Source of the DNA: an uncultured Flavobacteriaceae bacterium
GTDB taxonomy: Bacteria; Bacteroidota; Bacteroidia; Flavobacteriales; Flavobacteriaceae
DNA: 64,000 bases
Direction: 5' to 3'
NCBI GenBank assembly: GCA_943842245.1
Contig: CALTAJ010000002.1
Coordinates: 583,596-647,595, forward strand
The notes under the pieces are model-generated. The model was not told the origin of the DNA. It saw nothing but the letters and a program-made list of their open reading frames with translations, and made no database searches. Numbering within the stretch: position 1 is the first letter of the stretch; each line of letters opens with the position of its first letter. This document shows positions 8,354 through 39,261 of this stretch, one piece after another. The position numbers were made by a program, and so were the translations under genes.

Positions 8354-8391
8354 CAAAATCAAGACCAATTTAAATTTTTGACAACTTGTCA
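8354..8391 (-). promoter_or_regulatory. hsp20 promoter with a 13-base inverted repeat over the -33 element
   Basis: The minus strand carries the perfect inverted repeat TGACAA-G-TTGTCA (8391-8379). Its right half supplies the -33 TTG (8384-8382). After 20 bases comes TGATTTTG (8361-8354), 7 of 8 matches to TAnnTTTG. The spacing fits a Bacteroidota housekeeping promoter, with transcription starting roughly 40 bases before the hsp20 ATG. A near-copy of the repeat sits at the same place in front of htpG. Confidence 0.6.
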
Positions 8392-8423
8392 GTTATTTTA
8401 ATAATAAGCATGACATTATGGCT

Positions 8424-9617
8424 CTAATTGAGAGCTCTTTGAACTTTATCAGCAGCTTCTTGGAAAGCAGTGGCGGAAAGTACATTTAATCCGGATGAGT
8501 CTATCAACTCTTTTGCAATGTCAGAATTAGTACCTTGTAAACGAACTATAATCGGAACGTTGATTGCATCACCCATATTCTTATAAGCATCTACTATGCC
8601 TTGTGCAACTCTGTCACAGCGAACAATTCCTCCAAAGATGTTAACTAGAATAGCCTTAACATCAGGGTCTTTAAGAATTAAACGAAAGGCAGTTTCCACT
8701 CGGGTAGCATCAGCAGTTCCTCCAACATCGAGAAAATTTGCTGGATCCCCTCCAGCCTGCTTGATGAGATCCATGGTTGCCATCGCAAGGCCAGCTCCAT
8801 TAACCATACATCCAACATTTCCATCAAGATCTACATAGTTGAGTCCAACCTCGCGTGCTTCTACTTCAACGGGGTTTTCTTCGCTTAAATCTCGTAAAAC
8901 TTCAAAATCTTTATGACGAAACAAGCCATTATCATCTAAAGTTACTTTGGCATCTACTGCAATTATTCGATCATCAGAAGTTTTTAAAACTGGGTTTATT
9001 TCAAACAAAGAAGCATCAGATCCAATGTAGGCTTTATACAAGGAAGTTACAAATTTAGTCATGTCCTTAAAAGCATTACCGGATAGACCAAGATTAAAAG
9101 CTATCTTTCGAGCTTGGAATCCCTGAATACCAAGCGAAGGATCAATTTCTTCTGTAAAAATTAAATCAGGTGTCTGATCCGCAACAGCTTCAATATCCAT
9201 ACCTCCTTCAGTAGAATACATTATCATATTTTTACCTGTAGCCCGATTTAATAGAACAGAAATATAAAATTCGCTGGGTTCAGATTCGCCGGGATAGTAT
9301 ACATCTTCAGCCACTAAAACTTGATTAACCCTTTTACCTTCTCTGGGGGTTTGTGGAGTTATTAGTTGCATACCTATAATCTCTTCAGAAATACACTTAA
9401 GATCTTCAAGGCTTTTAGCTAATTTGACTCCGCCTCCTTTACCACGTCCTCCGGCATGAATTTGAGCCTTTACAATATGCCATGAAGTTCCAGTAGTTTC
9501 TGTTAATTTTTTTCCTGCTGCAACGGCCTCTTCCGCTGTTTTTGCAACAATTCCTCGTTGCACAGTAACTCCAAAACTAGCTAATAATTCTTTTCCTTGA
9601 TATTCGTGTAGATTCAT
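8424..9617 (-). CDS. sucC: Succinate--CoA ligase (ADP-forming) subunit beta
   Basis: SucC is the nucleotide- and succinate-binding subunit of succinyl-CoA synthetase in the TCA cycle. It works as a heterotetramer with SucD, which is not in this window. The start was moved to the internal ATG giving MNLHEYQGKELLASFGV, the conserved SucC N-terminus; this yields 397 residues, the usual family length. The ATP-grasp fold is visible in KAQIHAGGRGKGGGVKLA (about 51-68), the metal-site region EINPVL (about 205-210), and the C-terminal ligase domain with GNVGCMVNGAGLAMATMD and VNIFGGIVRCD (about 310-340). It is a lone gene between hsp20 and the divergent lysA. No sucD neighbour is present, as is common in this phylum. 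Confidence 0.97.
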   Translation of the reverse strand: MNLHEYQGKELLASFGVTVQRGIVAKTAEEAVAAGKKLTETTGTSWHIVKAQIHAGGRGKGGGVKLAKSLEDLKCISEEIIGMQLITPQTPREGKRVNQVLVAEDVYYPGESEPSEFYISVLLNRATGKNMIMYSTEGGMDIEAVADQTPDLIFTEEIDPSLGIQGFQARKIAFNLGLSGNAFKDMTKFVTSLYKAYIGSDASLFEINPVLKTSDDRIIAVDAKVTLDDNGLFRHKDFEVLRDLSEENPVEVEAREVGLNYVDLDGNVGCMVNGAGLAMATMDLIKQAGGDPANFLDVGGTADATRVETAFRLILKDPDVKAILVNIFGGIVRCDRVAQGIVDAYKNMGDAINVPIIVRLQGTNSDIAKELIDSSGLNVLSATAFQEAADKVQRALN

Positions 9618-9684
9618 AACTATAATATATCGAGTAAAAATAGAGATACCCATTGGAATTTTGGCTTCTTTAAGTTAAACTTTT

Positions 9685-9700
9685 TGTTATATGTATAACA
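9685..9700. promoter_or_regulatory. Perfect 16-base palindrome between sucC and lysA (candidate operator)
   Basis: TGTTATA-TG-TATAACA is a perfect 7-bp inverted repeat with a 2-base centre. It lies 68 bases upstream of the sucC start and about 35 bases upstream of the lysA -33 element. The compact dyad resembles a binding site for a dimeric regulator. No regulator gene is adjacent, so the function is inferred. Confidence 0.4.
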
Positions 9701-9734
9701 TTTTTAAAAATTTTGAGTGCGAAAACAGCTTTAA

Positions 9735-9765
9735 TTTGTTTGATAAGATATAGGTGTTACTTTTG
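9735..9765 (+). promoter_or_regulatory. lysA promoter
   Basis: TTTG (9735-9738), a 19-base spacer and TACTTTTG (9758-9765) match both halves of the Bacteroidota housekeeping promoter exactly. The predicted transcription start is near 9772, leaving a leader of about 13 bases before the lysA ATG. Confidence 0.65.
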
Positions 9766-9784
9766 ACGATTATATCGAGTTTAT

Positions 9785-11011
9785 ATGAAAAATGAAAATT
9801 TAATAAATATAGCTAAGCACTATAAAACTCCTGTTTACGTATACAATGGAAACAAAATTAAAAATCAATTTCAACGTCTAAAAAATGCATTTAGTGAAGT
9901 TGATAATCTCAGAATAAATTATGCCTGTAAGGCGCTTTCAAACATCTCAATACTTAATTTGATTCGTTCTTTTGGATCCGGACTGGATACAGTTTCTATA
10001 CAAGAAGTTGAATTAGGCATAAAGGCTGGTTTTAAACCAGAACATATAATATTTACACCCAATGGTGTTTCTTTAGAAGAAATTGAAAGTGTTGCTGCCA
10101 TGGGAGTCCAGATTAATATTGATAATCTTTCAACTCTTGAACAATTTGGCACAAAACATCCAAGCACTCCTGTTTGTATTCGTATAAATCCACATGTAAT
10201 GGCAGGAGGAAATAGTAATATCTCAGTAGGTCATATTGATTCAAAATTCGGAATTTCGATTCATCAAATCCCACATATATTACGTATAGTAAAAAACACT
10301 CAAATGCAAATCAATGGGGTTCACATGCATACCGGAAGTGATATTTTAGATATTGAGGTATTTTTATATGCAGCAGAAATATTATTTGATACTGCTTTAA
10401 AATTTAAAGATTTGGAATTTTTAGATTTTGGAAGTGGCTTTAAAGTCCCTTATCAATTTGGTGATATAGAAACTAATATCGAAGAATTAGGCGAAAAACT
10501 GAGTGATCGATTTCGCCGTTTTTGCAAAACCTACGGGAAAGAGTTGCAATTAGCATTTGAACCAGGTAAGTTTTTAGTTAGTGAAGCGGGTCATTTCTTG
10601 ACAAAAGTAAATACTGTAAAACAAACCACCTCTACTGTTTTCGCTCAAGTTGATTCGGGTTTTAATCATCTGATTAGGCCTATGATGTATGGTTCACACC
10701 ATGAGATAGTTAACATCTCCAACCCAAAGGGCAAAGAACGCTTCTATACTGTAGTGGGATATATATGTGAAACCGATACTTTTGGTAGCAATCGAAAAAT
10801 AGCTGAAATTTCTGAAGGTGACGTGTTAGCCTTCAAAAATGCAGGAGCTTACTGTTTCTCAATGGCTAGCAACTATAATTCTCGTTTTCGCCCACCAGAA
10901 ATTCTTTGGTATAAAGAAGTAGCTCATTTAATTAGAAAAGAAGAAACTTTAAAAGATTTGACTCAAAATCAAATTTTAATTGACTTTAATGAAACTGCAA
11001 CTGTCAATTAA
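9785..11011 (+). CDS. lysA: Diaminopimelate decarboxylase
   Basis: LysA is a PLP enzyme that decarboxylates meso-diaminopimelate to L-lysine, the last step of lysine synthesis. It has 408 residues, a typical length. The PLP-binding lysine is Lys49 in NYACKAL. The alanine-racemase-like barrel (about 20-280) includes RINPHVMAGG, the substrate/PLP-loop HMHTGSDI and the glycine-rich LDFGSGFKV. The C-terminal beta domain contains CETDTFG, which supplies the active-site cysteine from the dimer partner. The start is the first ATG, 13 bases after the predicted transcription start. The stop overlaps the 3' end of the convergent flavoprotein gene by 8 bases. Confidence 0.96.
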   Translation: MKNENLINIAKHYKTPVYVYNGNKIKNQFQRLKNAFSEVDNLRINYACKALSNISILNLIRSFGSGLDTVSIQEVELGIKAGFKPEHIIFTPNGVSLEEIESVAAMGVQINIDNLSTLEQFGTKHPSTPVCIRINPHVMAGGNSNISVGHIDSKFGISIHQIPHILRIVKNTQMQINGVHMHTGSDILDIEVFLYAAEILFDTALKFKDLEFLDFGSGFKVPYQFGDIETNIEELGEKLSDRFRRFCKTYGKELQLAFEPGKFLVSEAGHFLTKVNTVKQTTSTVFAQVDSGFNHLIRPMMYGSHHEIVNISNPKGKERFYTVVGYICETDTFGSNRKIAEISEGDVLAFKNAGAYCFSMASNYNSRFRPPEILWYKEVAHLIRKEETLKDLTQNQILIDFNETATVN

Positions 11012-11948
11012 TTTTGTTTAGTCTGTCAATTGTTTTATTATATATTTCGATAAATTCTTGAACAACTTCTGCTGCAGGTTTTATTGAATCAATTTGTGCT
11101 GCTACTTGACCAATTTCTAATTCACCTTCAATAAGGTCACCTTCAAACATACCTTTTTTAGCTCGCCCTCTTCCTAGCGCAAAACTAAGTTCTTCAACAC
11201 TAGCTCCATTTTGATAAAGATTTTGGATTTTTTTATAAAATGGATTTTTCATCATTCTCACAGGAGTTAACTCTTTTAAAGTTAGAATAGTTGTCCCTTG
11301 TTCTGCTTTAAGTATTTCTTCTTTAAAATTTAAATGAGAAGAGGCTTCGGGGGTAGCAACAAAACGAGAACCTACCTGAACTCCCTCAGCACCAAGAGCC
11401 ATAGCCGCCAACACTGATTCTCCTGAGCCAATACCTCCCGCTGCAATAAGTGGAATTTGAATTGCTTTTTTAACCAAAGGGATTAAGATCATTGTCGTTG
11501 TTTCTTCACGACCATTATGTCCTCCGGCTTCAAAACCCTCAGCCACTATAGCATCAACTCCGCAGTCTTGAGCTTTTAAAGCAAACTTAACTGAACTAAC
11601 AACGTGTACAACTATACATCCATTTTTTTTTAAATGCGATGTCCATAATTTTGGGCTCCCTGCAGCTGTAAAAACAATTGAAACTTTTTCCTCAACAATT
11701 ATTTCCATTAATTTATCTATATCTGGATAAAGCAAAGGGACATTAACACCAAAAGGTTTGTTGGTTGCTTTTTTGCATTTTTGGATATGTTCACGAAGAA
11801 CTTCAGGGTACATAGAGCCCGCTCCTAAAAGCCCTAATCCACCAGCATTACTTACAGCTGAAGCCAATTTCCATCCACTTGCCCAAACCATACCCGCTTG
11901 AATAATTGGATATCGAATCCCTAACAGCCTACAAATAGAATTTTGCAT
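11004..11948 (-). CDS. FMN-dependent nitronate monooxygenase / enoyl-ACP reductase II (FabK)-like protein
   Basis: This 314-residue TIM-barrel flavoprotein belongs to the NPD/FabK family. The N-terminus shows LGIRYPIIQAGM and SNAGGLGLLGAG, the family FMN/substrate loops. The phosphate-binding region reads VAEGFEAGGHNG and LIAAGGIGSGESVLAAMALGAEGVQVGSRF. Members either oxidise alkyl nitronates or reduce enoyl-ACP in fatty-acid synthesis, and sequence alone does not separate the two well. The start codon shares one base with the stop of the upstream gene (TAATG), so the two are translationally coupled. It is the last gene of a four-gene operon and converges on lysA with an 8-base overlap. Confidence 0.85.
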   Translation of the reverse strand: MQNSICRLLGIRYPIIQAGMVWASGWKLASAVSNAGGLGLLGAGSMYPEVLREHIQKCKKATNKPFGVNVPLLYPDIDKLMEIIVEEKVSIVFTAAGSPKLWTSHLKKNGCIVVHVVSSVKFALKAQDCGVDAIVAEGFEAGGHNGREETTTMILIPLVKKAIQIPLIAAGGIGSGESVLAAMALGAEGVQVGSRFVATPEASSHLNFKEEILKAEQGTTILTLKELTPVRMMKNPFYKKIQNLYQNGASVEELSFALGRGRAKKGMFEGDLIEGELEIGQVAAQIDSIKPAAEVVQEFIEIYNKTIDRLNKIN

Positions 11949-12862
11949 TATATAAACTGATCTACCTTAACATAAGCATCAATAACAGCTTGTTCGCCAG
12001 CTTTATCTTTGCGACTGTTGCCGTGTTCCATTCCCAGAATTCCATTAAAACCACGAGAATGGATATATTTAAATACGTTGGTATAATTAATCTCTCCAGT
12101 GGTAGGTTCATTTCTTCCAGGATTATCACCTATTTGGAAATAACCAATTTCGTCCCAGCATTTTTCAATGTTTGGAATTAGATTTCCTTCTTGAATTTGT
12201 TGGTGGTATATATCAAAAAGAATTTTGCAAGAGGGTGAATCTACTGCCTTACACACCTCATAAGCCTGTGGACTCTCCGACAAAAATAGGCCTGGATGAT
12301 CTCTAAAATTAAGTGGCTCCAATACCATGACAATTCCATGAGGCTCCAACAAACCAGACGCCAGTTTTAAACTTTCTACAACATGGGCAGTTTGATAGGC
12401 CATATTTTGTCTCAAATCTACATACCCAGGAACTACTGTCATCCACTTAGCATTAACACGCTTAGCTACAGGAATGGCTTTTTTGATGTAGTCCAAAAAC
12501 TCTTCTCTTAAAGCTTTATCACCGTTGGCTAGATTCGGTTTTTTCCAATAAATTTCATGTGCCACAAAAACTCCCATGCGAAGGCCACGCCTATCCATTG
12601 TCTGAGCCATTTTTTCTTGTAAAGCAACTTCACGGTTTCGCATATTGTTGTCTTCAAAAGCAGTAAAACCGTGATCTGCCATAAAATTTAACTGGTCTAT
12701 TGGATCATTACCAGCATGATTACGAAACATACCTAAATGTGGGGCATAAGCTAAATTGAATGATTGCTTTTTTGAGTCGCTATTTGAAGCGAAAATGGAT
12801 TGGGATGAAAACAATCCCATTCCGCCAAATCCTGCAAGTTGTGAAAAATTTCTACGGTTCAT
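11948..12862 (-). CDS. Tat-exported TIM-barrel sugar isomerase (hydroxypyruvate isomerase-like)
   Basis: This 304-residue protein belongs to the xylose-isomerase-like TIM-barrel superfamily (AP endonuclease 2 fold). The N-terminus MNRRNFSQLAGFGGMGLFSS is a twin-arginine signal, so the enzyme is probably exported folded. The body (about 35-300) contains the metal-ligand-type motifs VLEPLNFRDHPG, LFDIYHQQIQEG, IGDNPGRNEP and MEHGNS, typical of hydroxypyruvate isomerase and related epimerases. The substrate is unknown. It sits 2 bases after a Tat-type Gfo/Idh/MocA oxidoreductase, a pairing common in Bacteroidota and Planctomycetota sugar-processing loci. Its stop overlaps the start of the next gene by one base. 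Confidence 0.85.
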   Translation of the reverse strand: MNRRNFSQLAGFGGMGLFSSQSIFASNSDSKKQSFNLAYAPHLGMFRNHAGNDPIDQLNFMADHGFTAFEDNNMRNREVALQEKMAQTMDRRGLRMGVFVAHEIYWKKPNLANGDKALREEFLDYIKKAIPVAKRVNAKWMTVVPGYVDLRQNMAYQTAHVVESLKLASGLLEPHGIVMVLEPLNFRDHPGLFLSESPQAYEVCKAVDSPSCKILFDIYHQQIQEGNLIPNIEKCWDEIGYFQIGDNPGRNEPTTGEINYTNVFKYIHSRGFNGILGMEHGNSRKDKAGEQAVIDAYVKVDQFI

Positions 12863-12864
12863 TA

Positions 12865-14238
12865 CTAAACAAATTTAGTTTTACCTGGAGTGGGTATTGG
12901 ATAATTACCATTTTCATCCGGAAGAGACGGAGGTGTAGTATTCCAGGTCACTTCCTCAGGCATTAAATGCAGTTTAGAGTTTAGGGCTTCATCAAAAGTG
13001 ATTTTCTTTCCTGAATAAGTTGCCATTCGACCTAGAATTGCTGTTAGGGTACTTTTTGCACCGTTTTCAGCATCAGCTATAACATCACCATTTCGAATTG
13101 AAGCAAACAAACGATCATGTTCTACCTGATAAGGATTAGAATCTTCACCCCATTTATTGGGATACTTGTATTGACTGTTTCCATCTAAATCTGTAATTTC
13201 TCCTTTTCCTATTTCAACACTTCCTTTAGTACCCTGGAAGACTTCATCAACACGCCGCATTGTTCCACGAATATGTCTGCACTGGCTTGAAATCACAGCT
13301 CCACTCGCATAGGTAAATTCAACAAAGTGATGGTCAAAAATCTCACCATGATCTTTTCCATTACGAACTTGGCGTCCACCCATTCCTTGGGCTGAAACTG
13401 GATAATCTCCAATAAACCAATTTGCAACATCAATATTGTGAATGTGTTGCTCTAATATATGGTCGCCACAAAGCCAATTAAAATAATACCAATTTCTCAT
13501 CTGATATTCCAGTTCAGTTTGACTAGGCTGTCTCTTTTTTACCCATACTCCACCATCATTCCAATACACTTGACCTCCTCGGATTTTTCCAATGGCTCCT
13601 TGTTCAATACGATTCTTTAAATCAATATATTTTGATTCATAATGACGCTGTAGGCCAACAACGACATTTAATTTTTTTGCTTTAGCAAGTTTAGCCGAGG
13701 CCAAAACTTTCCTTATTCCAACAGGGTCTGTAGCAACAGGTTTTTCCATGAAAACGTGCTTGTCATTAGCAATAGCGTATTCAAAATGATAAGGTCGAAA
13801 ACCTGGAGGAGTTGTCAAAATTACAACATCAGCCAAGTCAATAGCTTTTTTATAGGCATCAAAACCTACAAACTTATTTTTTTCCTTTACACTGATTTTT
13901 CTTTTGCTACCTTGATGTTTAGATGTACTATAGTCAAGTTTTTCTTCTCCATCAAAATGTTTCTTGATTCCTATTAAACTTTTTTCAATACGGTCTGCAA
14001 AAGCATCAGCCATTGCTACTAATTCAACATTTTCGTCAGCGGTTAGCGCTTGAACTGCAGCACCAGAACCTCTTCCACCACAGCCTACCAAAGCCAATTT
14101 TAATTTTTGATTTCCGTTGACACGTGCCATACCCTCCATACTTAATGGTGCAGCAAGTAAAATTCCTGATGCTATTGCTGTTTTTTGAACAAAAGCACGT
14201 CTTGATTGACTTTTTTGATTTTTATCTTTATTATTCAT
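12865..14238 (-). CDS. Tat-exported Gfo/Idh/MocA family oxidoreductase
   Basis: This 457-residue NAD(P)-dependent sugar or cyclitol dehydrogenase-like protein has a twin-arginine signal (SRRAFVQKTAIASGILLAAP, residues 12-31), as in glucose-fructose oxidoreductase-type periplasmic enzymes. A Rossmann domain follows with LALVGCGGRGSGAAVQAL (about 48-65). The family EKP motif (MEKPVATDP, about 168-176) is conserved, and the C-terminal alpha/beta domain contains the DHILEQHIHNIDVANW active-site helix. The family commonly carries a tightly bound cofactor and acts on sugars. The specific substrate is not deducible. It is the second gene of the SUMF1-Gfo-TIM-flavoprotein operon, with gaps of 10 and 2 bases. 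Confidence 0.9.
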   Translation of the reverse strand: MNNKDKNQKSQSRRAFVQKTAIASGILLAAPLSMEGMARVNGNQKLKLALVGCGGRGSGAAVQALTADENVELVAMADAFADRIEKSLIGIKKHFDGEEKLDYSTSKHQGSKRKISVKEKNKFVGFDAYKKAIDLADVVILTTPPGFRPYHFEYAIANDKHVFMEKPVATDPVGIRKVLASAKLAKAKKLNVVVGLQRHYESKYIDLKNRIEQGAIGKIRGGQVYWNDGGVWVKKRQPSQTELEYQMRNWYYFNWLCGDHILEQHIHNIDVANWFIGDYPVSAQGMGGRQVRNGKDHGEIFDHHFVEFTYASGAVISSQCRHIRGTMRRVDEVFQGTKGSVEIGKGEITDLDGNSQYKYPNKWGEDSNPYQVEHDRLFASIRNGDVIADAENGAKSTLTAILGRMATYSGKKITFDEALNSKLHLMPEEVTWNTTPPSLPDENGNYPIPTPGKTKFV

Positions 14239-14248
14239 GATTTATAGT

Positions 14249-15238
14249 TTATTGTGTTAATTCGTAATTCCAATATTTTTTTTGTTCTGCTTCTAGTGGC
14301 GTTTTATAGGGACGTACTATCCTGAAACCAACAAAAGGTGCATCAGTGTGCCACCATTGACTTTTTGGAATTTGAGGATCCCGCTTTTTCCATTTTTTAG
14401 AAGAAGGTCTTCGTGATGCAGAACGTAATCTTTTAGGAGAGTCCATCCAAGACCCTCCTCTCACAACCTTTGGGTAAATTTTTGAAGGTTGTTGAAAGGG
14501 ATTTAGAACCTCACCTTTTCTTTGTCTATATGCGGTAGGTAGATATTGATCAAGAGTCCATTCAGCTACATTACCGTGCATATCATATAACCCCCATGCG
14601 TTTGGTTTTTTTGTCCCTACAAGTTGGTATTTATCGTTACTGTTACTAGCATACCAGGCATAATCATCTAAAACTTCCAGGTCTTCTCCAAACGAAAAAG
14701 CATCGCTACTCCCAGCTCTACATGCATATTCCCATTCAGCTTCAGTAGGTAAACGATAAAAATTTCCTGTCATTGCAGAAAGCCATTCACAAAATTTAAC
14801 GGCAGCTAATTGTGTCATACAGATAGCGGGGTAGCCTTCTATTCCCATGCCAAAACTCATTTCAACGTAAGGCGTCGTTGCGCCAGAGACTGCATCAACA
14901 TTTAATTTAACCTCAGCAGCTTCTGTTTTAGTGATCTGATTTCCATCCAACTCTCTGCTTACAAAAAGGTTATACAAGTCCCAAGTAACTTCATGTTGAC
15001 TCATCCAAAATCCATCAACAGTGACCTCATGTTGAGGGCCTTCATCACCAAAGTGTCCCAGCTCAGACCTTGCACTACCCATTTTAAAATTGCCTCCGGT
15101 AATAGATTGCATTGACAATCTATAGTCGTTACCAGGGATTTGTTCTTCATAATTTTCCTGAGCAAAAGAAAAGAAGCTGGTTATTAAAACAATAAGTATA
15201 TTACGTTTATAATTAGCCCTAAGCCTCTTTTCTTTCAT
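14249..15238 (-). CDS. SUMF1/formylglycine-generating-enzyme-like exported protein lacking the catalytic cysteines
   Basis: This 329-residue protein has an N-terminal signal segment (ILIVLITSFFSFAQ, ending about residue 27) and one SUMF1/EgtB-type domain (about 40-315). Family motifs are clear: FKMGS, VTVDGFWMSQHEVT, YRLPTEAEWEYACRAG, YDMHGNVAEWTLDQY, VVRGGSWMDSPKRLRSASRR and VGFRIVRP. True sulfatase-activating enzymes have two cysteines just after the RGGSW-type segment; here those positions are Asp and Leu, so formylglycine formation on sulfatases is unlikely. No sulfatase is encoded nearby. It is the first gene of the operon with the Tat oxidoreductase and isomerase, so a binding or structural role in that pathway is possible. 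Confidence 0.85.
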   Translation of the reverse strand: MKEKRLRANYKRNILIVLITSFFSFAQENYEEQIPGNDYRLSMQSITGGNFKMGSARSELGHFGDEGPQHEVTVDGFWMSQHEVTWDLYNLFVSRELDGNQITKTEAAEVKLNVDAVSGATTPYVEMSFGMGIEGYPAICMTQLAAVKFCEWLSAMTGNFYRLPTEAEWEYACRAGSSDAFSFGEDLEVLDDYAWYASNSNDKYQLVGTKKPNAWGLYDMHGNVAEWTLDQYLPTAYRQRKGEVLNPFQQPSKIYPKVVRGGSWMDSPKRLRSASRRPSSKKWKKRDPQIPKSQWWHTDAPFVGFRIVRPYKTPLEAEQKKYWNYELTQ

Positions 15239-15340
15239 TTTTATTAGATTAGTTTAAGAGTTTATTAAATATATATTAGCATATTATTTATACAATTTAA
15301 GAATTATAAACTCTAAAATAAATCTCTTAAATACTATTTT

Positions 15341-16525: not shown

Positions 16526-16552
16526 ATCGCAAAGATAGAAAGTATTAAAGGA

Positions 16553-18370: not shown

Positions 18371-18389
18371 TTTTTGGAACTTAATAATT

Positions 18390-29874: not shown

Positions 29875-29884
29875 ATATCTATTT

Positions 29885-30832: not shown

Positions 30833-30840
30833 TATGTATA

Positions 30841-30875: not shown

Positions 30876-30878
30876 TCT

Positions 30879-31049: not shown

Positions 31050-31052
31050 GAC

Positions 31053-31235: not shown

Positions 31236-31239
31236 TTTG

Positions 31240-31479
31240 TTAACCTTTATAGTGACCTTTTGCTCTGGCTTCTTTCAAAACAGCAGAAATGCCTTTTTTG
31301 TTAATTGTTTTTAGAGTCGCTGCCGAAACAGTAAGGGTTATCCACTTATCCTCCTCAGGAATATAAAAGCGCTTTTTGATGATATTAGCGTCAAAACGAC
31401 GCTTTGTTCTATTTAATGCTTTAGAAACGTTGTTCCCAAACATTACCCTTTTTCCACTGATCTCACAAACTTTTGACAT
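31240..31479 (-). CDS. rpmB: 50S ribosomal protein L28
   Basis: L28 is a large-subunit ribosomal protein. It has 79 residues, with the family opening [29 protein letters not shown] and the later segment [19 protein letters not shown]. It is the first gene of the rpmB-rpmG-DUF4295 operon. A full Bacteroidota promoter lies just upstream, with a predicted leader under 20 bases. Confidence 0.96.
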
Positions 31480-31502
31480 TATTGTCTTTTTTAACGTGGG
31501 TG

Positions 31503-31533
31503 CAAATTTACTGTTTTTTACACAGTATCAAAA
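31503..31533 (-). promoter_or_regulatory. rpmB operon promoter
   Basis: On the minus strand TTTTG (31533-31529), an 18-base spacer and TAAATTTG (31510-31503) match the Bacteroidota promoter consensus at both elements. The start of transcription should fall near 31497, giving a leader of about 18 bases before the rpmB ATG. Confidence 0.7.
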
Positions 31534-31558
31534 TTGTTTTTTTAAAAAAAATTGCTTT

Positions 31559-32800
31559 TTAAATCAATTGCTTAAAAAGCATCTCCAAAGCCTTATTAAC
31601 AGCTTTACCAATAATCCTTTTTCGATTTTTACCAAATAAAAACTTTTCACTAATAATTCCCTCTTCATAAGCAATAGCTATCCATACAGTTCCTACCTCA
31701 ACATCGGAATCTCCTTTAGTAGGACCTGCATTTCCTGTAGTAGAAAGTCCAATACTAGTATTAAATTTTACCCGTGCTTCCTTCGCCATAGCTTCTGCAA
31801 CTTCCTTACTGACTACCGAATATTCTTCAATAAGCTTTTTTGGAACATCCAAAACATCAGATTTGGATTGGGTGTGATAGACAACTAAACCACCGCTAAA
31901 ATATCTTGATGCTCCAGGTATTTTTGTTAATCGAGATGCAATTTCTCCCCCTGTACAACTTTCTGCAGTGCTTAAACTCAATTTTTTTGTGATAAATTGA
32001 GCTTGTATTTTTTCTTCAAATGATGCAACATCTTCATAACCTACAAAGATATCTTTAATCAAGGGTAAAAGTTTTTTCAATTCAGCATCTATTCTCCTTT
32101 CTAATAATGCTTCATCAGAGCCCTTTCCAGAAAGACGTAGACGGACACGTCCTAAATTTGGCAAATAAGCAAGCTTAATGTCCTTGGGAAGATTATTTTC
32201 CCAATTTAATATACGTTCAGAAATAGCACTTTCTCCTAATCCATAAGTCATTAGAGTTTTATGCAAGATAAAAGGACGGATAAAATGACGCTGTAAAGCA
32301 GGTAACACCTCCTGAGTCATTAACGATTTCATCTCAAAGGGAACTCCAGGAAGTGAAATGATTATTTGCTTATCTTTTTCAAACCACATTCCAGAGGCTG
32401 TACCGTGTTCGTTTTTAAAAATTCTCGCTTTTGAGGGTAATAATGCTTGTTGCCGATTTTGATTATTAATAGGTGTGGTCACATATTTCTTAAAAATCTC
32501 TTCTATGTGCAATAAAATCTCTTTTTTTTCTTCTAAAACATCATTAAAGTAGGTACACAATGTATGCTTGGTTAAATCGTCTTTGGTAGGACCTAAACCT
32601 CCAGTCATAATCACAAGTTGTGCCCTTGAGTAAGATGAATCTAAAGCATTTATAATAGCTTCCTTTTCGTCTGAAACACTAGTGATTTGAACAATTTCAA
32701 TTCCAATTTTGTTTAAAGCTTTTGCTAAAAAAATAGAATTAGTATTTACGATTTGACCAATAAGTATTTCATCACCTATCGATATAAGTTCTGCCTTCAT
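31559..32800 (-). CDS. cinA: CinA-family protein (competence/damage-inducible protein A)
   Basis: This 413-residue protein has both CinA domains. The N-terminal MoCF/COG1058 domain (about 1-170) starts MKAELISIGDEILIGQIVNTN and has MTGGLGPTKDDLT, linked in the family to ADP-ribose pyrophosphatase activity. The C-terminal domain (about 250-413) has LSTAESCTGGEIASRLT and STTGNAGPTKGD, typical of nicotinamide-nucleotide amidohydrolase (PncC). Together they point to NAD salvage by deamidating NMN; a competence role is known only in some lineages. The start ATG is one base after the stop of the FAH gene, so the two are in the same operon. Confidence 0.93.
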   Translation of the reverse strand: MKAELISIGDEILIGQIVNTNSIFLAKALNKIGIEIVQITSVSDEKEAIINALDSSYSRAQLVIMTGGLGPTKDDLTKHTLCTYFNDVLEEKKEILLHIEEIFKKYVTTPINNQNRQQALLPSKARIFKNEHGTASGMWFEKDKQIIISLPGVPFEMKSLMTQEVLPALQRHFIRPFILHKTLMTYGLGESAISERILNWENNLPKDIKLAYLPNLGRVRLRLSGKGSDEALLERRIDAELKKLLPLIKDIFVGYEDVASFEEKIQAQFITKKLSLSTAESCTGGEIASRLTKIPGASRYFSGGLVVYHTQSKSDVLDVPKKLIEEYSVVSKEVAEAMAKEARVKFNTSIGLSTTGNAGPTKGDSDVEVGTVWIAIAYEEGIISEKFLFGKNRKRIIGKAVNKALEMLFKQLI

Positions 32801-32801
32801 T

Positions 32802-33413
32802 TTATTTGATTTTTACTGAGAAAGCTTGTCTATCTTCTAAGTGACCAACTAAAACATCACCTTCAGATACAGTGCCAACTCCAGCTGGGGTTCCTGTAAA
32901 AATTATATCACCTATTTTAAGTGTAAAATATTGAGAAATATAGCTGATTAAATCATCAATATTCCAAAGCATTTTTGAAGTATTCCCATGCTGAACAACA
33001 TAGTCATTAAGTTTTAAACTAAATGAAAGTGAATTTAAATCTTTAAACTCATTTTTAGGAAACCAATCTCCAATCAACGCTGAACCGTCAAAAGATTTGG
33101 ATTTGTCCCAAGGCATTCCATTTTTTTTTAACTGATTTTGAAGTTTACGTGCAGTAAAGTCAATTCCCAACCCAATCTCTTCATAATATTTGTGAGCAAA
33201 TTTAGTCTGTATGTGTTTACCAATTCTATTTATTCTAATCAATACCTCTACTTCATAATCAATATTTGAAGAAAAATGAGGAATAAAAAACGGTTGATTT
33301 TTCTGTAAGATAGAGGTGTCTGGTTTAATAAATAATACTGGGTTTTTAGGTTTATCATTACCCAACTCTTTAATATGAGAAAAATAATTTCTCCCTACAC
33401 ATACAATTTTCAC
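32802..33413 (-). CDS. Fumarylacetoacetate hydrolase family protein
   Basis: This 203-residue single-domain FAH-fold protein starts MKIVCVGRNYFSHIKELGN. The metal-binding glutamates appear in NIDYEVEVLIRI (about 70-81), and the acidic segment GLGIDFTARKLQ and the GDIIFTGTPAGVG loop near the C-terminus are family hallmarks. Members are acylpyruvases, oxaloacetate decarboxylases or 2-hydroxymuconate-type hydrolases. The substrate cannot be assigned. Spacing of 4 bases to the upstream exonuclease gene and 1 base to cinA supports an operon. Confidence 0.88.
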   Translation of the reverse strand: MKIVCVGRNYFSHIKELGNDKPKNPVLFIKPDTSILQKNQPFFIPHFSSNIDYEVEVLIRINRIGKHIQTKFAHKYYEEIGLGIDFTARKLQNQLKKNGMPWDKSKSFDGSALIGDWFPKNEFKDLNSLSFSLKLNDYVVQHGNTSKMLWNIDDLISYISQYFTLKIGDIIFTGTPAGVGTVSEGDVLVGHLEDRQAFSVKIK

Positions 33414-33417
33414 AATT

Positions 33418-34191
33418 TCAACCTTTTGTATTCATGGTCTTTAATCTAATCTCAGTAAGTACTTTTTTAGTATATCTTGGAAAGTCTGCATTAAGAACCC
33501 ATCCAAAATAACCTGGCTCTTTTTCCAAAATATCAGTGACTTTTTGGCCTTTATGTTTTCCAAATCCAAAACACATTTCATTTGATTTATCAAATACAAC
33601 AAAACCTGCAAAATCTGCTGTTTTTCTTCTTGTACTAAATTTATTTAAAAAATCTATGTTTGGCTCTAAATCATTGTATCGGTCTAGTTGAGCTAATAAT
33701 ACATCATGAGTAGCTTTAGTATCTGCTTGAGCTGAATGTGCATCTTTAAGTTCCTCTTCGCAATAAAATTTGAGAGCAGCAGAAAGTGTACGAGCTTCCA
33801 TTTTATGGAAAATAGTTTGAACATCGACTGTTTTAACATTTTTAAAATCAAAGGAAACCTCGGCACGAAGAAGTTCTTCAACTAAAAGAGGGATATCAAA
33901 ACGATCAGAATTAAATCCTGCTAAATCACAGCCTTTCAAGAAGCCATAAATAATATGAGATTCTTCTTTGAAAGTAGGGGCATTTACTACCATTTCATTT
34001 GTAATACCATGAATTTCAGAAACTTCAGGTGGAATCTGAATTTCTGGATTGATACGTTTCTCCATTTTCTCATGTGTTCCATCAGGATGTAATTTAAGAA
34101 TTGCAATTTCTACGATTCTATCTTTACTTATATTAGTACCAGTTGTTTCCAAGTCAAAAAAACAAAGCGGTTTAGCTAGTTGAAGTTTCAT
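33418..34191 (-). CDS. DEDDh 3'-5' exonuclease (DNA polymerase III epsilon-like)
   Basis: This 257-residue nuclease has the DEDDh active site: Asp13 and Glu15 in FFDLETTGT, the second-motif Asp in LAGFNSDRFDIPLL (about 93-106), and His and Asp in AHSAQADTKATHDVLL (about 151-166). A C-terminal extension (about 205-257) with FGKHKGQKVTDILEKEPGYFGWVL resembles the small accessory domain common to Bacteroidota proteins of this type. It may act as a proofreading or repair exonuclease. The main replicative epsilon subunit cannot be distinguished from a paralogue here. It lies 9 bases downstream of the E2 gene. Confidence 0.9.
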   Translation of the reverse strand: MKLQLAKPLCFFDLETTGTNISKDRIVEIAILKLHPDGTHEKMEKRINPEIQIPPEVSEIHGITNEMVVNAPTFKEESHIIYGFLKGCDLAGFNSDRFDIPLLVEELLRAEVSFDFKNVKTVDVQTIFHKMEARTLSAALKFYCEEELKDAHSAQADTKATHDVLLAQLDRYNDLEPNIDFLNKFSTRRKTADFAGFVVFDKSNEMCFGFGKHKGQKVTDILEKEPGYFGWVLNADFPRYTKKVLTEIRLKTMNTKG

Positions 34192-34200
34192 AATCTCAAA

Positions 34201-35532
34201 TTAATAGGGAAGAGTCTCTTTCCAATTTTCTAAATATTCCGCAACACGTTTTACAAAAAGCCCCCCAGTAGCTCCATTAATTATTCGATGATCATAACTG
34301 TGAGAAAGAATTACTTTTCTTCGTATTCCTATAAAATCTCCATTTGGAGTTTCGATAACAGCTGGCATTTTTCGAATTGATCCTATAGCTAAGATTCCTA
34401 CCTGTGGCTGGTTTATTATGGGCGTCCCCATAATTGATCCAAAATTTCCAATATTTGTAAATGTATAAGTCCCATCTTGAACTTCCTCGGGCTTTAAATT
34501 ATTGTTTCGTGCGCGATTTGCCAGATCATTTACAGCTTTTGTCAGCCCTACTAAATTTAAGTGATCTGCATTTTTAATTACAGGAACAATAAGATTTCCA
34601 TCAGGTAATGCAGTTGCCATTCCCAAGTTTATATCTTTTTTGATGATGATTTTATCACTATCCAAACTACTATTTAAAGCTGGATAATCACGTAGAGCTT
34701 TAATTGTAGCTCTAATAAATAAAGGTGTAAAGGTCAATTTTTCATTTTCACGTTTTAAAAAAGGGTCTTTGACCTTTTCTCGCCAGTCCCATAAATCAGT
34801 AACATCAACTTCTATAAAGGATTGAACGTGAGCAGAAGTTTGTATGCTTGATTTCATGTGGGATGAAATCAGCTTCTCCATACGACTCATTTCTATGATT
34901 TGATCACCTTCTGAAAAACTAGGCTTTGCTAATATCGGAAGCTTTGTGATTTTTGATTGATCTTCTATTTTATCTGAATTCTTATCAGGATGAATAACTC
35001 TATTATTTAGATATTGAAGTAAGTCTTTTTTAGTTAATCGATGCCCTTTTCCTGATCCTGGTATTTGATCTAATTCATCTTGTAAAATCTCCTCCTTTTT
35101 TGCAATATTTTTTACCAAAGGGGAATAAAAACGTTCGCTATTCTCCTTTGTTTGATTTACTTTGATTTCTATGGTCTTAATTTCTTCTTCCAATTCTGCT
35201 GCAACTAATTCAGTTTCATCTTTTTCTTTGAAAGAAGTTTCAGGGACTATCTTATTTAAATCTAAATCATTAAGAGATTCGTTTTCTCCTTTTTCAGTTT
35301 CAATAACTACTAAAACCTCTCCAACCTGAGCAACTTCATTTTCTTCAAATTTCTTTTCTATGATGACGCCTTCAGCTTCAGAAGTTACATCAGTGTCGAC
35401 TTTATCAGTTGCTATTTCTAATATCGGGTCATCTATAGATACTGAATCACCAACATTTTTTAACCATTTGATTATAGTTGCCTCAGCTACACTTTCACCC
35501 ATTTTGGGTAATTTTAAAAAATATTGTCCCAT
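34201..35532 (-). CDS. 2-oxoacid dehydrogenase E2 (dihydrolipoyl acyltransferase)
   Basis: This is the core acyltransferase of a 2-oxoacid dehydrogenase complex, probably branched-chain 2-oxoacid or pyruvate type, 443 residues. Domains in order: lipoyl domain (1-78) with the lipoylated Lys44 in EIATDKVDTDV; an acidic linker; an E3/E1-binding domain (about 135-175, PLVKNIAKKEEI...GHRLTKKDLLQYL); and the catalytic domain (about 205-443). The active-site motif reads SYDHRIINGATGG, with Asn where most family members have Asp after the catalytic histidine. Genes for E1 and E3 are not in the window. A -7 box and a palindrome sit immediately upstream. Confidence 0.9.
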   Translation of the reverse strand: MGQYFLKLPKMGESVAEATIIKWLKNVGDSVSIDDPILEIATDKVDTDVTSEAEGVIIEKKFEENEVAQVGEVLVVIETEKGENESLNDLDLNKIVPETSFKEKDETELVAAELEEEIKTIEIKVNQTKENSERFYSPLVKNIAKKEEILQDELDQIPGSGKGHRLTKKDLLQYLNNRVIHPDKNSDKIEDQSKITKLPILAKPSFSEGDQIIEMSRMEKLISSHMKSSIQTSAHVQSFIEVDVTDLWDWREKVKDPFLKRENEKLTFTPLFIRATIKALRDYPALNSSLDSDKIIIKKDINLGMATALPDGNLIVPVIKNADHLNLVGLTKAVNDLANRARNNNLKPEEVQDGTYTFTNIGNFGSIMGTPIINQPQVGILAIGSIRKMPAVIETPNGDFIGIRRKVILSHSYDHRIINGATGGLFVKRVAEYLENWKETLPY

Positions 35533-35534
35533 AA

Positions 35535-35554
35535 TATTACGTAATACAAAAGTA
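35535..35554 (-). promoter_or_regulatory. -7 box abutting a perfect 12-base palindrome upstream of the E2 gene
   Basis: On the minus strand a perfect -7 box TACTTTTG (35554-35547) is followed directly by the perfect palindrome TATTACGTAATA (35546-35535), which ends 2 bases before the ATG. The palindrome covers the predicted transcription start. That is a position where a bound protein would block initiation, and the leader would be very short. A good -33 TTG is not seen. Confidence 0.45.
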
Positions 35555-35611
35555 TCAAATTTTGATGGGGAAATCAGATTTAATTAATAGATCTACAAAG
35601 AAGATTTTGAA

Positions 35612-36232
35612 TCAACTTTTTGTAATGGATGACTCAAATGGAATACGAGCCAAAATGGATCTACCTAGAGTAACTTCATCAGTATACTCCAACTCATCCC
35701 CTACAGGAATTCCTCTGGCAATTGTGGAAGTCTTTATCTGATATGGAGATAACAATTTGTAAATATAAAAATTTGTAGTGTCTGCTTCCATAGTTGCGCT
35801 TAAAGCAAAAATTACTTCATGAACAGAACCTTCTTTTGCCTTATTTACAAGAGAAGTAATATTTAAATCTTGAGGTCCAACCCCCTCCATTGGAGAAATA
35901 ATTCCACCTAAGACATGATAAATTCCCTGAAATTGTCCTGTACTTTCAATCGCCATAACGTCTCGAATATCTTCAACTACACAAAGTAATTTTTTATCAC
36001 GTTTTGGACTAGAACAAATCTCACAAAGGGTTGAATCTGAAAGGTTGTGACAACTAGAACAGAAGATTACACCGTCTCTTAATGCTTTAAGAGAATCTGA
36101 AAGCAAATGAGTATTTTCTTTAGGTTGCTTTAAAAGGTGTAATGCGAGTCTTAATGCAGTTCTCTTTCCTATTCCTGGTAAAAGGGCAATTTCTTGGACT
36201 GCATTTTCAAGTAACTTTGATGAAAAATCCAT
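35612..36232 (-). CDS. recR: Recombination protein RecR
   Basis: RecR works with RecO and RecF to load RecA at single-strand gaps. It has 206 residues, the usual size. The N-terminal helix-hairpin-helix ([18 protein letters not shown], about 17-34) binds DNA. The zinc finger has four cysteines ([18 protein letters not shown], about 57-74), the Toprim domain starts [16 protein letters not shown], and the C-terminal Walker-like [18 protein letters not shown] is conserved. The gene is divergent from the symporter gene, 64 bases apart. Confidence 0.97.
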
Positions 36233-36296
36233 GTGTAAATTTACAAAAAACTAGGTTGTCTCTACTTTCGTATCTTGGCCTCTTTAAAATTAAATA

Positions 36297-37757
36297 ATGA
36301 TAACTCCCCTATTCATACTAAGCCTAATAATTGGTTATTTTTTTGTTCTTTTCAGTATTTCTTATTTGTTTGTAAAGGAGGATTCTAATGAAGTGTTTTT
36401 TAAAGCCAATCGAAATTCTCCTTGGTATTTAGTTGCCTTTGGAATGGTTGGAGCATCATTATCAGGAGTTACCTTTATATCGGTTCCAGGTTGGGTAGAT
36501 TCTTCAAAATTCCACTATTTTCAAGTTGTTTTAGGTTATCTTATTGGATATTTTGTTGTAGCATATTTACTCTTACCTCTTTACTATAAAAATAATGTAA
36601 CTTCAATTTATGAATACCTTTTGATACGTCTAGGGAAAAGAAGCCATTATGCAGGTGCTTTCTTTTTTTTTATTTCGAGGGTTTTAGGAGCTGCATTTAG
36701 ATTATTTCTCGTTGCAATTGTACTTCAAAATTTTATTTTTGACGCTTGGAATATACCTTTTGAAATTACAGTAGTAATCTCAATATTACTGATTTGGATT
36801 TATACTCAAAAAGGTGGCATTAAAACTATAGTATTTACTGATACACTTCAAACAGCTTTAATGATTCTTTCTGTATTGCTCTCAATAAATTATATAAATC
36901 AGGCATTGGATTGGTCTTTTTTTGATTTTCTAACTTCAAGAGAATTATCTAATTATAATGATATTTTCGTTACAGATTCACTTTTGAGTCGAAACCATTT
37001 TATAAAATCTTTTGTTGGAGGTGCTTTTGTAACAATATGTATGACTGGTCTAGATCAAGATATGATGCAAAAAAATCTGAGCTGTCGGAATTTAAAAGAT
37101 GCTCAAAAAAATATGATTGTCTTTAGTATTGTTTTGGTTATAGTAACTGGACTATTTATGCTTTTAGGAGCATTACTATACATTTATGCTGATCAACAAG
37201 TTATTTCTGTCCCAATAATGGATGGAAGTATTAAAACAGATCTTCTATTTCCAGAAATTGCACTAAATGGTGGATTAGGTATTACCGTTGCTATAACTTT
37301 TATTCTTGGCTTAATTGCTGCAGCATACAGCAGTGCAGATAGTGCATTGACTTCATTAACAACTTCCTTTTGTGTAGACTTTCTTGATATAAAACAATAT
37401 GAAAGTTCAAAACAAAAAAGTTTACGTAAAAAAATTCATATTGGAATGAGTATTTTATTGATTTTAGTTGTCATATCATTTAAATATTTTTTAGGTCGTA
37501 ATGTCATCGACGGACTTCTTACAGCTGCTGGATACACATACGGTCCTCTATTAGGTCTTTTTTCATTTGGAATATTTACAGATTATAAAATAAGGGATCA
37601 ATGGCTTTGGCTAGTTATATTGGTAGTATTGCTTTTGATAAGCATTTTGGGTTCTTTAGATGCTAGTCTTTTGGGTGGGTATGAATTAGGATATGAACTA
37701 CTTCCCTTAAACGGACTACTTACATTTTTAGGTTTGATATTGATTCGTAGAAAGTAA
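36297..37757 (+). CDS. Sodium:solute symporter family transporter
   Basis: This 486-residue inner-membrane transporter of the SSS family has about 13 hydrophobic helices. Family landmarks are WYLVAFGMVGASLSGVTFISVPGW in TM2, the GGIKTIVFTDTLQT loop, and AAAYSSADSALTSLTTSF (about 345-362), which carries sodium-site serines. It should co-transport Na+ with a small solute (a sugar, amino acid or carboxylate); the substrate is not readable. The 3' end overlaps the convergent CoA-binding protein gene by 30 bases, the largest overlap in the window. Confidence 0.92.
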   Translation: MITPLFILSLIIGYFFVLFSISYLFVKEDSNEVFFKANRNSPWYLVAFGMVGASLSGVTFISVPGWVDSSKFHYFQVVLGYLIGYFVVAYLLLPLYYKNNVTSIYEYLLIRLGKRSHYAGAFFFFISRVLGAAFRLFLVAIVLQNFIFDAWNIPFEITVVISILLIWIYTQKGGIKTIVFTDTLQTALMILSVLLSINYINQALDWSFFDFLTSRELSNYNDIFVTDSLLSRNHFIKSFVGGAFVTICMTGLDQDMMQKNLSCRNLKDAQKNMIVFSIVLVIVTGLFMLLGALLYIYADQQVISVPIMDGSIKTDLLFPEIALNGGLGITVAITFILGLIAAAYSSADSALTSLTTSFCVDFLDIKQYESSKQKSLRKKIHIGMSILLILVVISFKYFLGRNVIDGLLTAAGYTYGPLLGLFSFGIFTDYKIRDQWLWLVILVVLLLISILGSLDASLLGGYELGYELLPLNGLLTFLGLILIRRK

Positions 37758-38099
37758 AATTAAAGTACAGGCATTTTCCCAAAAAATTCCTGAAGCACTT
37801 AGTTTTTTAGCAAAAATTTTATTTTCAGTTCCAGGGTTAAAAATAATACGATGTGGTTTTAGCTTTAAAATAAAATCGAGGTATTGATCTTGTTTTTGTG
37901 GAGCTAAATAAAGTGAAATGGTGTGAATATCTTTCAGAACTGTAAATGGAGCTACAATTTTAATATTAGCAATTTTTCCTTCTTTTATCCCCATAGGAAT
38001 TACATCTATACCTGCATTAAATAGGCTAATAACAGCTTTAAAAGAATAGCGTTCATTATTTGGTGAAGCCCCAAGAATAAGAGTTTTATAATTTACCAT
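37728..38099 (-). CDS. CoA-binding (YccU-like) domain protein
   Basis: From the ATG giving MVNYKTLILGASPNNERYSF this is a 123-residue single-domain protein. It has a Rossmann-like fold with the GASPNNERYSFKAV nucleotide loop, VIPMGIKEG, and RIIFNPGTENK near the C-terminus, typical of small CoA-binding proteins related to the succinyl-CoA synthetase alpha N-domain. A longer reading with seven extra residues lies inside fabH and is less likely. The start overlaps the fabH stop by seven bases, so translation is coupled. The function beyond CoA binding is unknown. Confidence 0.85.
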   Translation of the reverse strand: MVNYKTLILGASPNNERYSFKAVISLFNAGIDVIPMGIKEGKIANIKIVAPFTVLKDIHTISLYLAPQKQDQYLDFILKLKPHRIIFNPGTENKIFAKKLSASGIFWENACTLILLSTNQYQT

Positions 38100-39100
38100 T
38101 GAATCATGATACTCCCCCATGTAAAGCCACTTCCAAAAGCAGCTAATACAACTTTATTTCCCTTTTCAATTTTACCTTCTTCCCAAGCTTCAGTTAGAGC
38201 GATCGGAATTGAAGCAGCAGTAGTGTTCCCATAACGCTGAATATTATTATAAACTTGATTGTCACTAAGTCCAAATTTCTTTTGAACAAATTCAGCAATA
38301 CGAAGGTTAGCTTGATGAGGAATCAGCATATCAATTTCGTTTGGCTTCCAGCCTACTTTTTTTAATCCTGCATTAATAACTTCAGTAAAACGAACTACAG
38401 CATTTTTAAATACAAACTGACCATTCATAAAAGGATAATATGATATGTCTTCTGGATTATTTTCTTTCATAATCTCAGGAACCCATCGACCTGTGCTAGG
38501 TCCGATAAGAGAGAGCTCTTTCGCATGTTTTCCCTCGGAATGCAATTGTGAGTTTAGAATACCTATTGAATTACTTTCAGTTCGAGTCATTACAACAGCA
38601 CCAGCTCCATCACCAAAAATTACTGATATATTCCTGCCACGAGTTGTCATATCAAGACCTCCAGAATGAAATTCCGAGCCAATGACTAAAACATTTTTAT
38701 ACATTCCGGTTTTAATAAACTGGTCTGCAGTAGCAACTGCATAAACAAATCCAGAACATTGCATACGGATATCCATTGCTGGACAATCTGGAATATTTAA
38801 AGCCTCTTGTACAAGGACCCCTGAACCAGGAAAATAATAATCTGGACTTAGTGTAGCAAACAAAATTAAATCAATATCCTTGGCTAATAATCCAGATCGT
38901 TCAATCGCAATTTTGGAAGCCTTAACTCCCATTGATGAAGTAGAATCTTTACTTCCCTTAGAAATGTGACGTCGTTCTTTAATTCCAGTTCGTTCTTGAA
39001 TCCAATCATCTGAAGTTTCCATAATACTTTCTAAATCAGAGTTCTTGACAACGTTATCTGGCAAGTATTTTCCGAGTCCAATAATTTTTGAATTATACAT
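38093..39100 (-). CDS. fabH: 3-oxoacyl-ACP synthase III (KAS III)
   Basis: FabH starts fatty-acid synthesis by condensing an acyl-CoA primer with malonyl-ACP. It has 335 residues. The catalytic cysteine is Cys115 in RMQCSGFVYA, the His is in LIPHQANLRI (about 260) and the Asn in RYGNTTAASIP (about 290). The N-terminus MYNSKIIGLGKYLPDN and TGIKERR are conserved. In flavobacteria a FabH of this kind often uses branched-chain primers, but specificity cannot be read here. The plsX/rpmF genes often found next to fabH are absent. It overlaps the CoA-binding gene by 7 bases. Confidence 0.93.
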   Translation of the reverse strand: MYNSKIIGLGKYLPDNVVKNSDLESIMETSDDWIQERTGIKERRHISKGSKDSTSSMGVKASKIAIERSGLLAKDIDLILFATLSPDYYFPGSGVLVQEALNIPDCPAMDIRMQCSGFVYAVATADQFIKTGMYKNVLVIGSEFHSGGLDMTTRGRNISVIFGDGAGAVVMTRTESNSIGILNSQLHSEGKHAKELSLIGPSTGRWVPEIMKENNPEDISYYPFMNGQFVFKNAVVRFTEVINAGLKKVGWKPNEIDMLIPHQANLRIAEFVQKKFGLSDNQVYNNIQRYGNTTAASIPIALTEAWEEGKIEKGNKVVLAAFGSGFTWGSIMIQW

Positions 39101-39222
39101 CTTTATATAAATTATATTGAAAAGTACATTTTTTTAGATAGGAAAACGAATTCCTTCTAAACAGAAGTTATTTATGTATGTGCTTTGAAAAAATTCTACT
39201 TTTAAAATTTGATCACAAATAG

Positions 39223-39261
39223 TGCCATGTTGTCATATTTTCAATTTTGGTATTTTATTTG
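39223..39261 (+). promoter_or_regulatory. htpG promoter with a TGnCA-N3-TGnCA element at -33
   Basis: TGCCATGTTGTCA (39223-39235) matches the hsp20 element at 11 of 13 bases and keeps its symmetrical TGnCA-N3-TGnCA core. Its right half provides a -33 TTG (39230-39232). After 21 bases comes TTTATTTG (39254-39261), 7 of 8 matches to TAnnTTTG. Transcription would start about 25 bases before the htpG ATG. Confidence 0.5.

Follow-up and report, generated by a model that had tools for sequence, protein, structure and literature searches.

The question raised by a 64-kb stretch of DNA (the window, G000:C2:583596-647595) from an uncultured Flavobacteriaceae bacterium, whose genome comprises 2.08 Mb in 4 contigs, is what kind of promoter and which regulator stand behind a 13-bp palindrome shared by the chaperone genes hsp20 and htpG. 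Based on sequence comparison within this genome and across its order, we propose that the dyad TGNCA-N3-TGNCA is very probably the enhancer (upstream activating sequence) of one sigma-54 activator, the bacterial enhancer-binding protein (bEBP) whose gene lies between miaB and lptE beside groESL. We connect the dyad to this bEBP by elimination, as it is the sole strong bEBP with a helix-turn-helix (HTH) here and the sole strong bEBP in the endosymbionts of the order, by the presence of the dyad at the promoter of its own operon, and by the helical phasing of the dyad with the sigma-54 element downstream.

The dyad and the -24/-12 element at chaperone promoters

On the minus strand, hsp20 (7888..8307, taken from the first ATG of the frame; small heat-shock protein, PF00011) is preceded by the dyad TGACAAGTTGTCA at 8379..8391, which is palindromic about its central base, and 11 bp past the dyad by the predicted sigma-54 -24/-12 element TGGTCTTGATTTTGC at 8353..8367. 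The position of this element predicts a transcription start near 8341, which places the centre of the proposed enhancer at about -44. The same arrangement is found on the plus strand at htpG (39290..41170; Hsp90, PF00183), with the dyad TGCCATGTTGTCA at 39223..39235 (proposed enhancer, centre at about -45), the predicted element TGGTATTTTATTTGT 12 bp further on at 39248..39262, and a predicted start near 39274. Both promoters have the pattern TGG-N8-TTG, and the base after it, C or A in the typical sigma-54 element, is T at htpG. The two dyads lie where the original prediction placed them, and they are identical at 11 of 13 bases and differ at 2. Both promoters are predicted to be of the sigma-54 -24/-12 type and not sigma-A promoters with the dyad at -33, and the box formerly described there as TAnnTTTG-like is the predicted sigma-54 -12 element.

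The exact pattern TGNCANNNTGNCA occurs at 17 places in the own genome, as compared to 9 for the pattern read backwards. All 17 were inspected, and the 5-70 bp downstream of each were scored for TGG-N8-TTG with extra weight on GG and the final G; the gene names rest on family matches and, for groES, dnaJ, lptE, the tetratricopeptide-repeat gene tpr and secG, on reading of the translations. Eight dyads lie outside coding frames, before groES, the miaB operon, dnaK, grpE-dnaJ, hsp20 and htpG and at two metabolic-gene sites, and nine lie inside frames (L003-L008, gyrA at L009, and the starts of lon at L010 and of a porphobilinogen deaminase frame at L017). A -24/-12 element follows in 5 of the 17 cases, at gaps of 32 bp (groES), 12 bp (dnaK), 11 bp (grpE), 11 bp (hsp20) and 12 bp (htpG), and these five dyads precede five core chaperone operons, groESL, dnaK, grpE-dnaJ, hsp20 and htpG. 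The sites at lon and clpC in this genome were not taken as regulon members, since they fall within the reading frames of lon and gyrA and have no -24/-12 element downstream. The palindromes TGACACCGTGTCA (L015 1501-1513, G000:C2:722140-722152) and TGACACAGTGTCA (L016 1501-1513, G000:C2:760334-760346) are set between A/T-rich runs and adjoin a 3-hydroxyacyl-CoA dehydrogenase plus SCP2 gene and an electron-transfer flavoprotein gene, respectively. Their appearance suggests an operator of another kind, possibly one for fatty-acid breakdown.

Across the order, the 250 bp upstream of each gene were searched for a dyad with at most one mismatch followed, at a gap of 5-70 bp, by a -24/-12 element scoring at least 10/12. 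The pair was found at groES in 27 of 30 upstream regions (12 with an exact dyad), at htpG in 10 of 11 (7 exact), at dnaK in 22 of 30 (12 exact) and at hsp20 in 19 of 28 (3 exact), and the follow-up at grpE, known beforehand from the own-genome copy alone, gave 25 of 30. Loci were at hand for groES at 30 of 61 places in the order, for dnaK in 30 of 32 genomes and for grpE in 30 of 31 matched genomes; for htpG, 11 of 29 upstream regions (own genome and 10 other families) entered this count and the phasing below, 18 congeners being omitted as redundant. The hsp20 count is made up of the window copy and 27 loci, only matches with a locus having been read, and it omits an own duplicate (L284, no in-frame ATG), a partial match (L312) and the second copy of one genome (L313); for G101 no ATG was found, so that the position at which its upstream region begins is approximate. 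In twenty dinucleotide shuffles, these groES, htpG, dnaK and hsp20 regions yielded at most one pair per set, and the pair was present at 2 of 243 control open reading frames, which were chosen mechanically from the same kinds of loci (ATG, at least 150 amino acids, chaperone-like signatures removed). One of these two control matches, at L350 (~2145-2214, plus), belongs to a gene that diverges from grpE and is preceded by a separate dyad and -24/-12 candidate at a gap of 11.

An exact dyad stands before htpG in the own genome, in 18 of 18 congeners for which upstream sequence was retrieved (24 congeners were searched) and in 6 of 10 other families, and alignment of the htpG relatives showed that TGG (once CGG) and TTG, the hallmark of sigma-54 promoters, are conserved downstream at fixed spacing. 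The element is kept in relatives at htpG, hsp20 and other chaperone genes, is enriched at groES and dnaK, two of the genes that the original prediction proposed to check, and is far from equally common at other genes; this distribution supports its proposal that a common regulator acts on the chaperone regulon through the dyad. The bases preferred at dyad position 3 (A/T/C) are mirrored by those at position 11 (T/A/G), and given this mirroring the direct 8-bp repeats hinted at by the grpE site were set aside. Covariation of the two positions was not found (9 of 28 dyads palindromic vs 11.6 expected).

The dyad is phased with the -24/-12 element. Sixty-one spacings, one per gene and genus with the first genome of each genus kept, cluster at 11-13, 22-23, 32-34, 42-45, 54 and 63-65 bp (about 12, 23, 33, 43, 54 and 64), with a best period of 10.5 bp (R = 0.874), and none of 20,000 random sets was as good. 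At grpE, 24 of 25 gaps measure 10-13 bp and one measures 32 bp, with a phase of 1.39 bp vs 1.49 bp in the first set; because 24 of them sit at the proximal spacing, grpE tests position more than periodicity. A set of named loci, the best 80 of at least 590 confirmed matches, in 28 of which the script recognised no groES and in 46 no miaB, gave the pair in 49 of 52 groES loci with R = 0.82, a result that is not fully independent because the groES sets overlap in families. Upstream of groES in L148, L149, L155 and L142, the distal dyad overlaps a hairpin-like TGCCAGC...GCTGGCATTTT followed by T's, so that the secG terminator and the dyad share bases. Since the spacings place the dyad nearly always on the same helix face, we propose that the contact between the bEBP and the polymerase is stereospecific.

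The candidate activator and its retention with RpoN

In the own genome the cluster is ordered miaB-bEBP-lptE-tpr-secG-groES-groEL, the lptE gene being lptE-like. The bEBP has 421 amino acids and carries an AAA+ domain (PF00158, 1.1e-65) with the GAFTGA loop, a lid and, at its C-terminus, a Fis-type HTH (PF02954, 6.1e-12); it lacks a sensor domain, as the protein starts 12 residues before the AAA+ domain. A GAFTGA or GSFTGA loop is present in 12 of the 12 bEBP sequences that the script recognised in 21 loci, and the HTH segment ELGISERTLYRKIK is invariant in 11 bEBP sequences of the order. Between the AAA+ lid and the HTH, residues ~277-310 form a conserved block (strongest at ~281-300) that has no Pfam match and is a candidate signal-receiving segment; the sequence relatives of the bEBP in the PDB span residues ~9-267 only. 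The protein reaches no NCBIfam equivalog cut-off, the PspF equivalog TIGR02974 scoring 268.9 bits vs a cut-off of 443.55. Among the matches listed, relatives with 55-82% identity are encoded on contigs whose titles name Flavobacteriales, Bacteroidales, Olivibacter, Hymenobacter and Algoriphagus. L228, a contig filed as a metagenome-assembled genome of Rhizobium sp. Q54 and probably mis-binned, encodes a bEBP that shares 72% identity with the flavobacterial protein.

The own genome also encodes rpoN (G000:C2:705607-706083, PF04552) and two strong PF00158 proteins, of which only the one in the groESL cluster has an HTH in Pfam. The second (L131 1258-2421, G000:C2), whose gene follows immediately on one for an MscS-like channel within a few kb of grpE-dnaJ, is NtrC-like. 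It combines a receiver with an AAA+ domain, has GAFTSA instead of GAFTGA and a lid that is shortened, and matches no HTH in Pfam; it may have lost sigma-54 activation. RpoN was found in 46 of 46 genomes of one set searched with PF04552. Of the 45 order genomes in which groES was placed, 34 have a strong PF00158 match no more than 7 kb away from it, and 15 order genomes have a single strong PF00158 match, which in 14 of them is beside groES.

The insect-endosymbiont family provides a natural series. Among its 41 genomes, RpoN and one strong bEBP are present together in 28 and both are missing in 12, and in the 28 the bEBP is the only strong PF00158 match and lies within 3 kb of groES. The exception, G087, lacks RpoN and has an unrelated phage-like enhancer-binding protein fragment, encoded next to a DNA ligase on a 19.6-kb contig of its own. 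There (L374, G087:C1:17000-19636), a frame resembling DNA ligase accompanies a piece of an AAA+ activator with NSFTGA; the contig is lower in G+C than the one with groES and is probably a stray. The dyad with the -24/-12 element precedes groES in 26 of 28 RpoN-positive genomes vs 0 of 11 RpoN-negative ones, the RpoN-negative G099 and G105 having no groES match.

These observations suggest the following mechanism. The bEBP, bound to the dyad, would contact the sigma-54 RNA polymerase waiting at -24/-12, and ATP hydrolysis by the bEBP would open the promoters of groESL, dnaK, grpE-dnaJ, htpG and hsp20. The dyad would act from 11-13 bp upstream of -24 (centre at about -45) or from a site more distant by one to five helical turns, in nearly all cases facing the same way, and from the nearest dyads the contact would probably be made with little or no DNA loop. 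As it has no sensor domain, the bEBP is presumably controlled in trans; the simplest way would be for free chaperone to bind it, through which heat could be sensed. The original prediction had left open whether a repressor or an activator was at work; our results lean to an activator, as sigma-54 requires one and the dyad is helically phased with its element.

Several points weigh against this proposal. Some promoters lack the element by our rule (dnaK 8 of 30, hsp20 9 of 28, grpE 5 of 30, groES 3 of 30 and htpG 1 of 11), the dyad is exact in 34 of 78 elements, so that over half have one mismatch, and the dyads within the lon and gyrA frames, the latter the site at clpC, are followed by no -24/-12 element. 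The 243-frame control is lenient because many of those upstream regions are not promoters. Spacings more than 2 bp off phase are seen in 2 of the 61 (27 and 51 bp) and among the 49 named groES loci (27, 35, 48 and 62 bp), and a few groES spacings may be incidental because some distal dyads overlap the secG terminator-like hairpin. A centre at about -45 is unusually close, as bEBP sites usually lie 100-150 bp upstream (PMC7057263). The bEBP is not near groES in 10 of 45 order genomes, and in G083 rpoN is present with no strong PF00158 match, groES being at a contig edge. As for the endosymbionts, the element is missing at groES in the RpoN-positive G085 and G089 and at dnaK in four of the five RpoN-positive genomes examined (G039, G052, G088 and G089), while in G085 the dnaK element is present only with one mismatch and off phase. 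Any bEBP would be expected to disappear together with rpoN, and few independent losses may lie behind the RpoN-negative lineages, for which reason the series is supportive and not a statistical proof. Finally, a possible -24/-12 element was also scored in 7 of the 29 miaB loci described below.

A wider view, which we put forward tentatively and rate at somewhat less than an even chance, extends the mechanism to a sigma-54 chaperone response throughout the Bacteroidota. One dedicated sensor-less bEBP would act from a polymerase-adjacent, face-locked and largely loop-free enhancer, repress itself and be restrained by chaperone through the linker between the AAA+ lid and the HTH, and endosymbionts with genomes of 0.26-0.6 Mb would keep RpoN and this single bEBP mainly for groESL. 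If true, such a phylum-wide loop would explain a retention of RpoN in endosymbionts that is otherwise read as nitrogen control.

Alternative readings of the dyad

The alternative that survives best, though we consider it improbable, is that the dyad is the operator or activator site of another DNA-binding protein, for example the response regulator RprY. This protein would tune the sigma-54 promoters, and the bEBP would act at other sites or without contacting DNA. In Porphyromonas gingivalis, RprY shifts promoter fragments of groES, dnaK and clpB, and no motif is given in the parts of that report consulted (PMC3646045). The own genome has two OmpR-type (PF00486) proteins, and the proximal position of the dyad could also suit a repressor. 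On the other hand, among 11 RpoN-positive endosymbionts the PF00486 cut-off is reached in none (a weak broken match in G086), but the groES element is kept in 9, and the phasing with -24/-12 is easier to reconcile with a protein that works with the polymerase than with a repressor. RprY as a general binder was rejected on this absence of PF00486, the DNA-binding family that the check covered, from endosymbionts keeping the element, an argument that bears on the endosymbionts and does not extend to the own genome.

Less probable still is the model of the original prediction, in which the right half of the dyad provides the -33 TTG of a sigma-A promoter with TAnnTTTG as its -7 box, and a repressor or activator sits over the dyad. 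The right half does hold TTG at both window sites, but among the 95 element-bearing chaperone upstream regions it does so in 39, mainly at htpG, and an exact TAnnTTTG lies 19-21 bp past it in only one (1 of 27 at groES, 0 of 28 at htpG, 0 of 22 at dnaK and 0 of 18 at hsp20). By comparison, 61 of 61 tabulated -24/-12 elements retain the GG and the final G, which is partly by construction because these positions are weighted in the selection score. The proposed -33 position was thus not borne out at the chaperone genes.

The layout is real, however, at the promoter of the putative activator itself. An exact dyad is found upstream of miaB in 29 of the 34 named loci in which miaB was recognised, and TAnnTTTG begins 16-20 bp past the dyad in 23 of these 29; the other six have it at 9-10 bp (three), are cut off by the analysed span (two) or have no exact copy (one). 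In the own genome the nearest box, as read from the sequence, is TAATTTTA, 18 bp past the dyad and with one mismatch to TAnnTTTG. Because the dyad here mostly overlies the -33 region of a predicted sigma-A promoter, the bEBP probably represses its own operon, in the way that PspF represses its own sigma-70 promoter (PMC3709507, PMC7057263).

Chance, by which two AT-rich, low-complexity promoters would share a short palindrome, has next to no probability: TGNCANNNTGNCA matches the window twice, solely at hsp20 and htpG, and 100 shuffles of the window gave a mean of 0.68 matches and two or more in 17, so the pair alone is weak evidence and the original claim that the sharing is not accidental could not be drawn from the window, but it holds on the genome-wide, order-wide and grpE enrichment, which refutes chance.

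Comparison with known systems

Sigma-54 control of flavobacterial chaperones has already been published for Flavobacterium psychrophilum and predicted for the phylum. In F. psychrophilum, mapped starts of the sigma-54 (SM4) class are reported at groESL, dnaK, grpE-dnaJ, htpG, lon and clpB (PMC9723704, 2021), a gene set overlapping with ours and likewise with -24/-12 elements at the mapped starts. As far as the consulted parts of that study go, no activator is assigned ('three proteins' with PF00158 being possible) and no enhancer or spacing rule is given, and hsp20 is absent from the consulted part of its table. Sigma-54 promoters were also predicted to be enriched at GroEL, GroES, DnaK, DnaJ, GrpE and IbpA in Flavobacteriia, Bacteroidia and Cytophagia and also in Planctomycetota (PMC12316311, 2025), and the consulted parts of this work tie no particular bEBP or enhancer to the chaperone promoters. 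Our literature search, mainly limited to open-licence papers, found no report of an activator, enhancer or spacing rule for these promoters.

Walczuchella, Uzinura and Blattabacterium keep RpoN, and a table shows it absent in one comparison genome, Sulcia according to the text; in the sections consulted, this retention in reduced flavobacterial endosymbionts is called unusual and is tentatively tied to nitrogen (PMC3971599). Control of groESL through the proposed enhancer offers a possible reason for it. More generally, one sigma-54 activator, a 13-bp enhancer and a rule for their spacing that can be read off the sequence make a testable account of how flavobacterial chaperones could be coordinated without CIRCE-like sites, and the 10.5-bp spacing steps are an unusually clean natural experiment on the short-range orientation of a bEBP toward the sigma-54 polymerase.

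The CIRCE element, with the consensus TTAGCACTC-N9-GAGTGCTAA, stands upstream of groE and dnaK. The CIRCE/HrcA system resembles the one described here in having an inverted repeat common to chaperone operons, but the sequences are unlike and the dyad here is a proposed activator site, not a repressor site. The best match to this consensus in 146 upstream regions had 5 mismatches in 18 positions, which agrees with the original prediction that the dyad is distinct from CIRCE. CIRCE/HrcA was rejected on the sequence of the site, no search having been made for HrcA itself.

The RprY regulon of P. gingivalis, by gel shift, likewise includes the groES, dnaK and clpB promoters (PMC3646045), but RprY is an OmpR-family repressor, and that domain is missing in most of the tested endosymbionts that keep the element. 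A further parallel is PspF of Escherichia coli, which like the bEBP described here has no N-terminal sensor domain, serves a stress regulon with sigma-54 and represses itself, as is proposed here (PMC3709507, PMC7057263). The flavobacterial bEBP differs from PspF in its regulon, in having no known PspA-like partner, in the conserved linker after its AAA+ lid, in scoring below the PspF equivalog cut-off, and in a proposed enhancer centred at about -45 in place of one far upstream.

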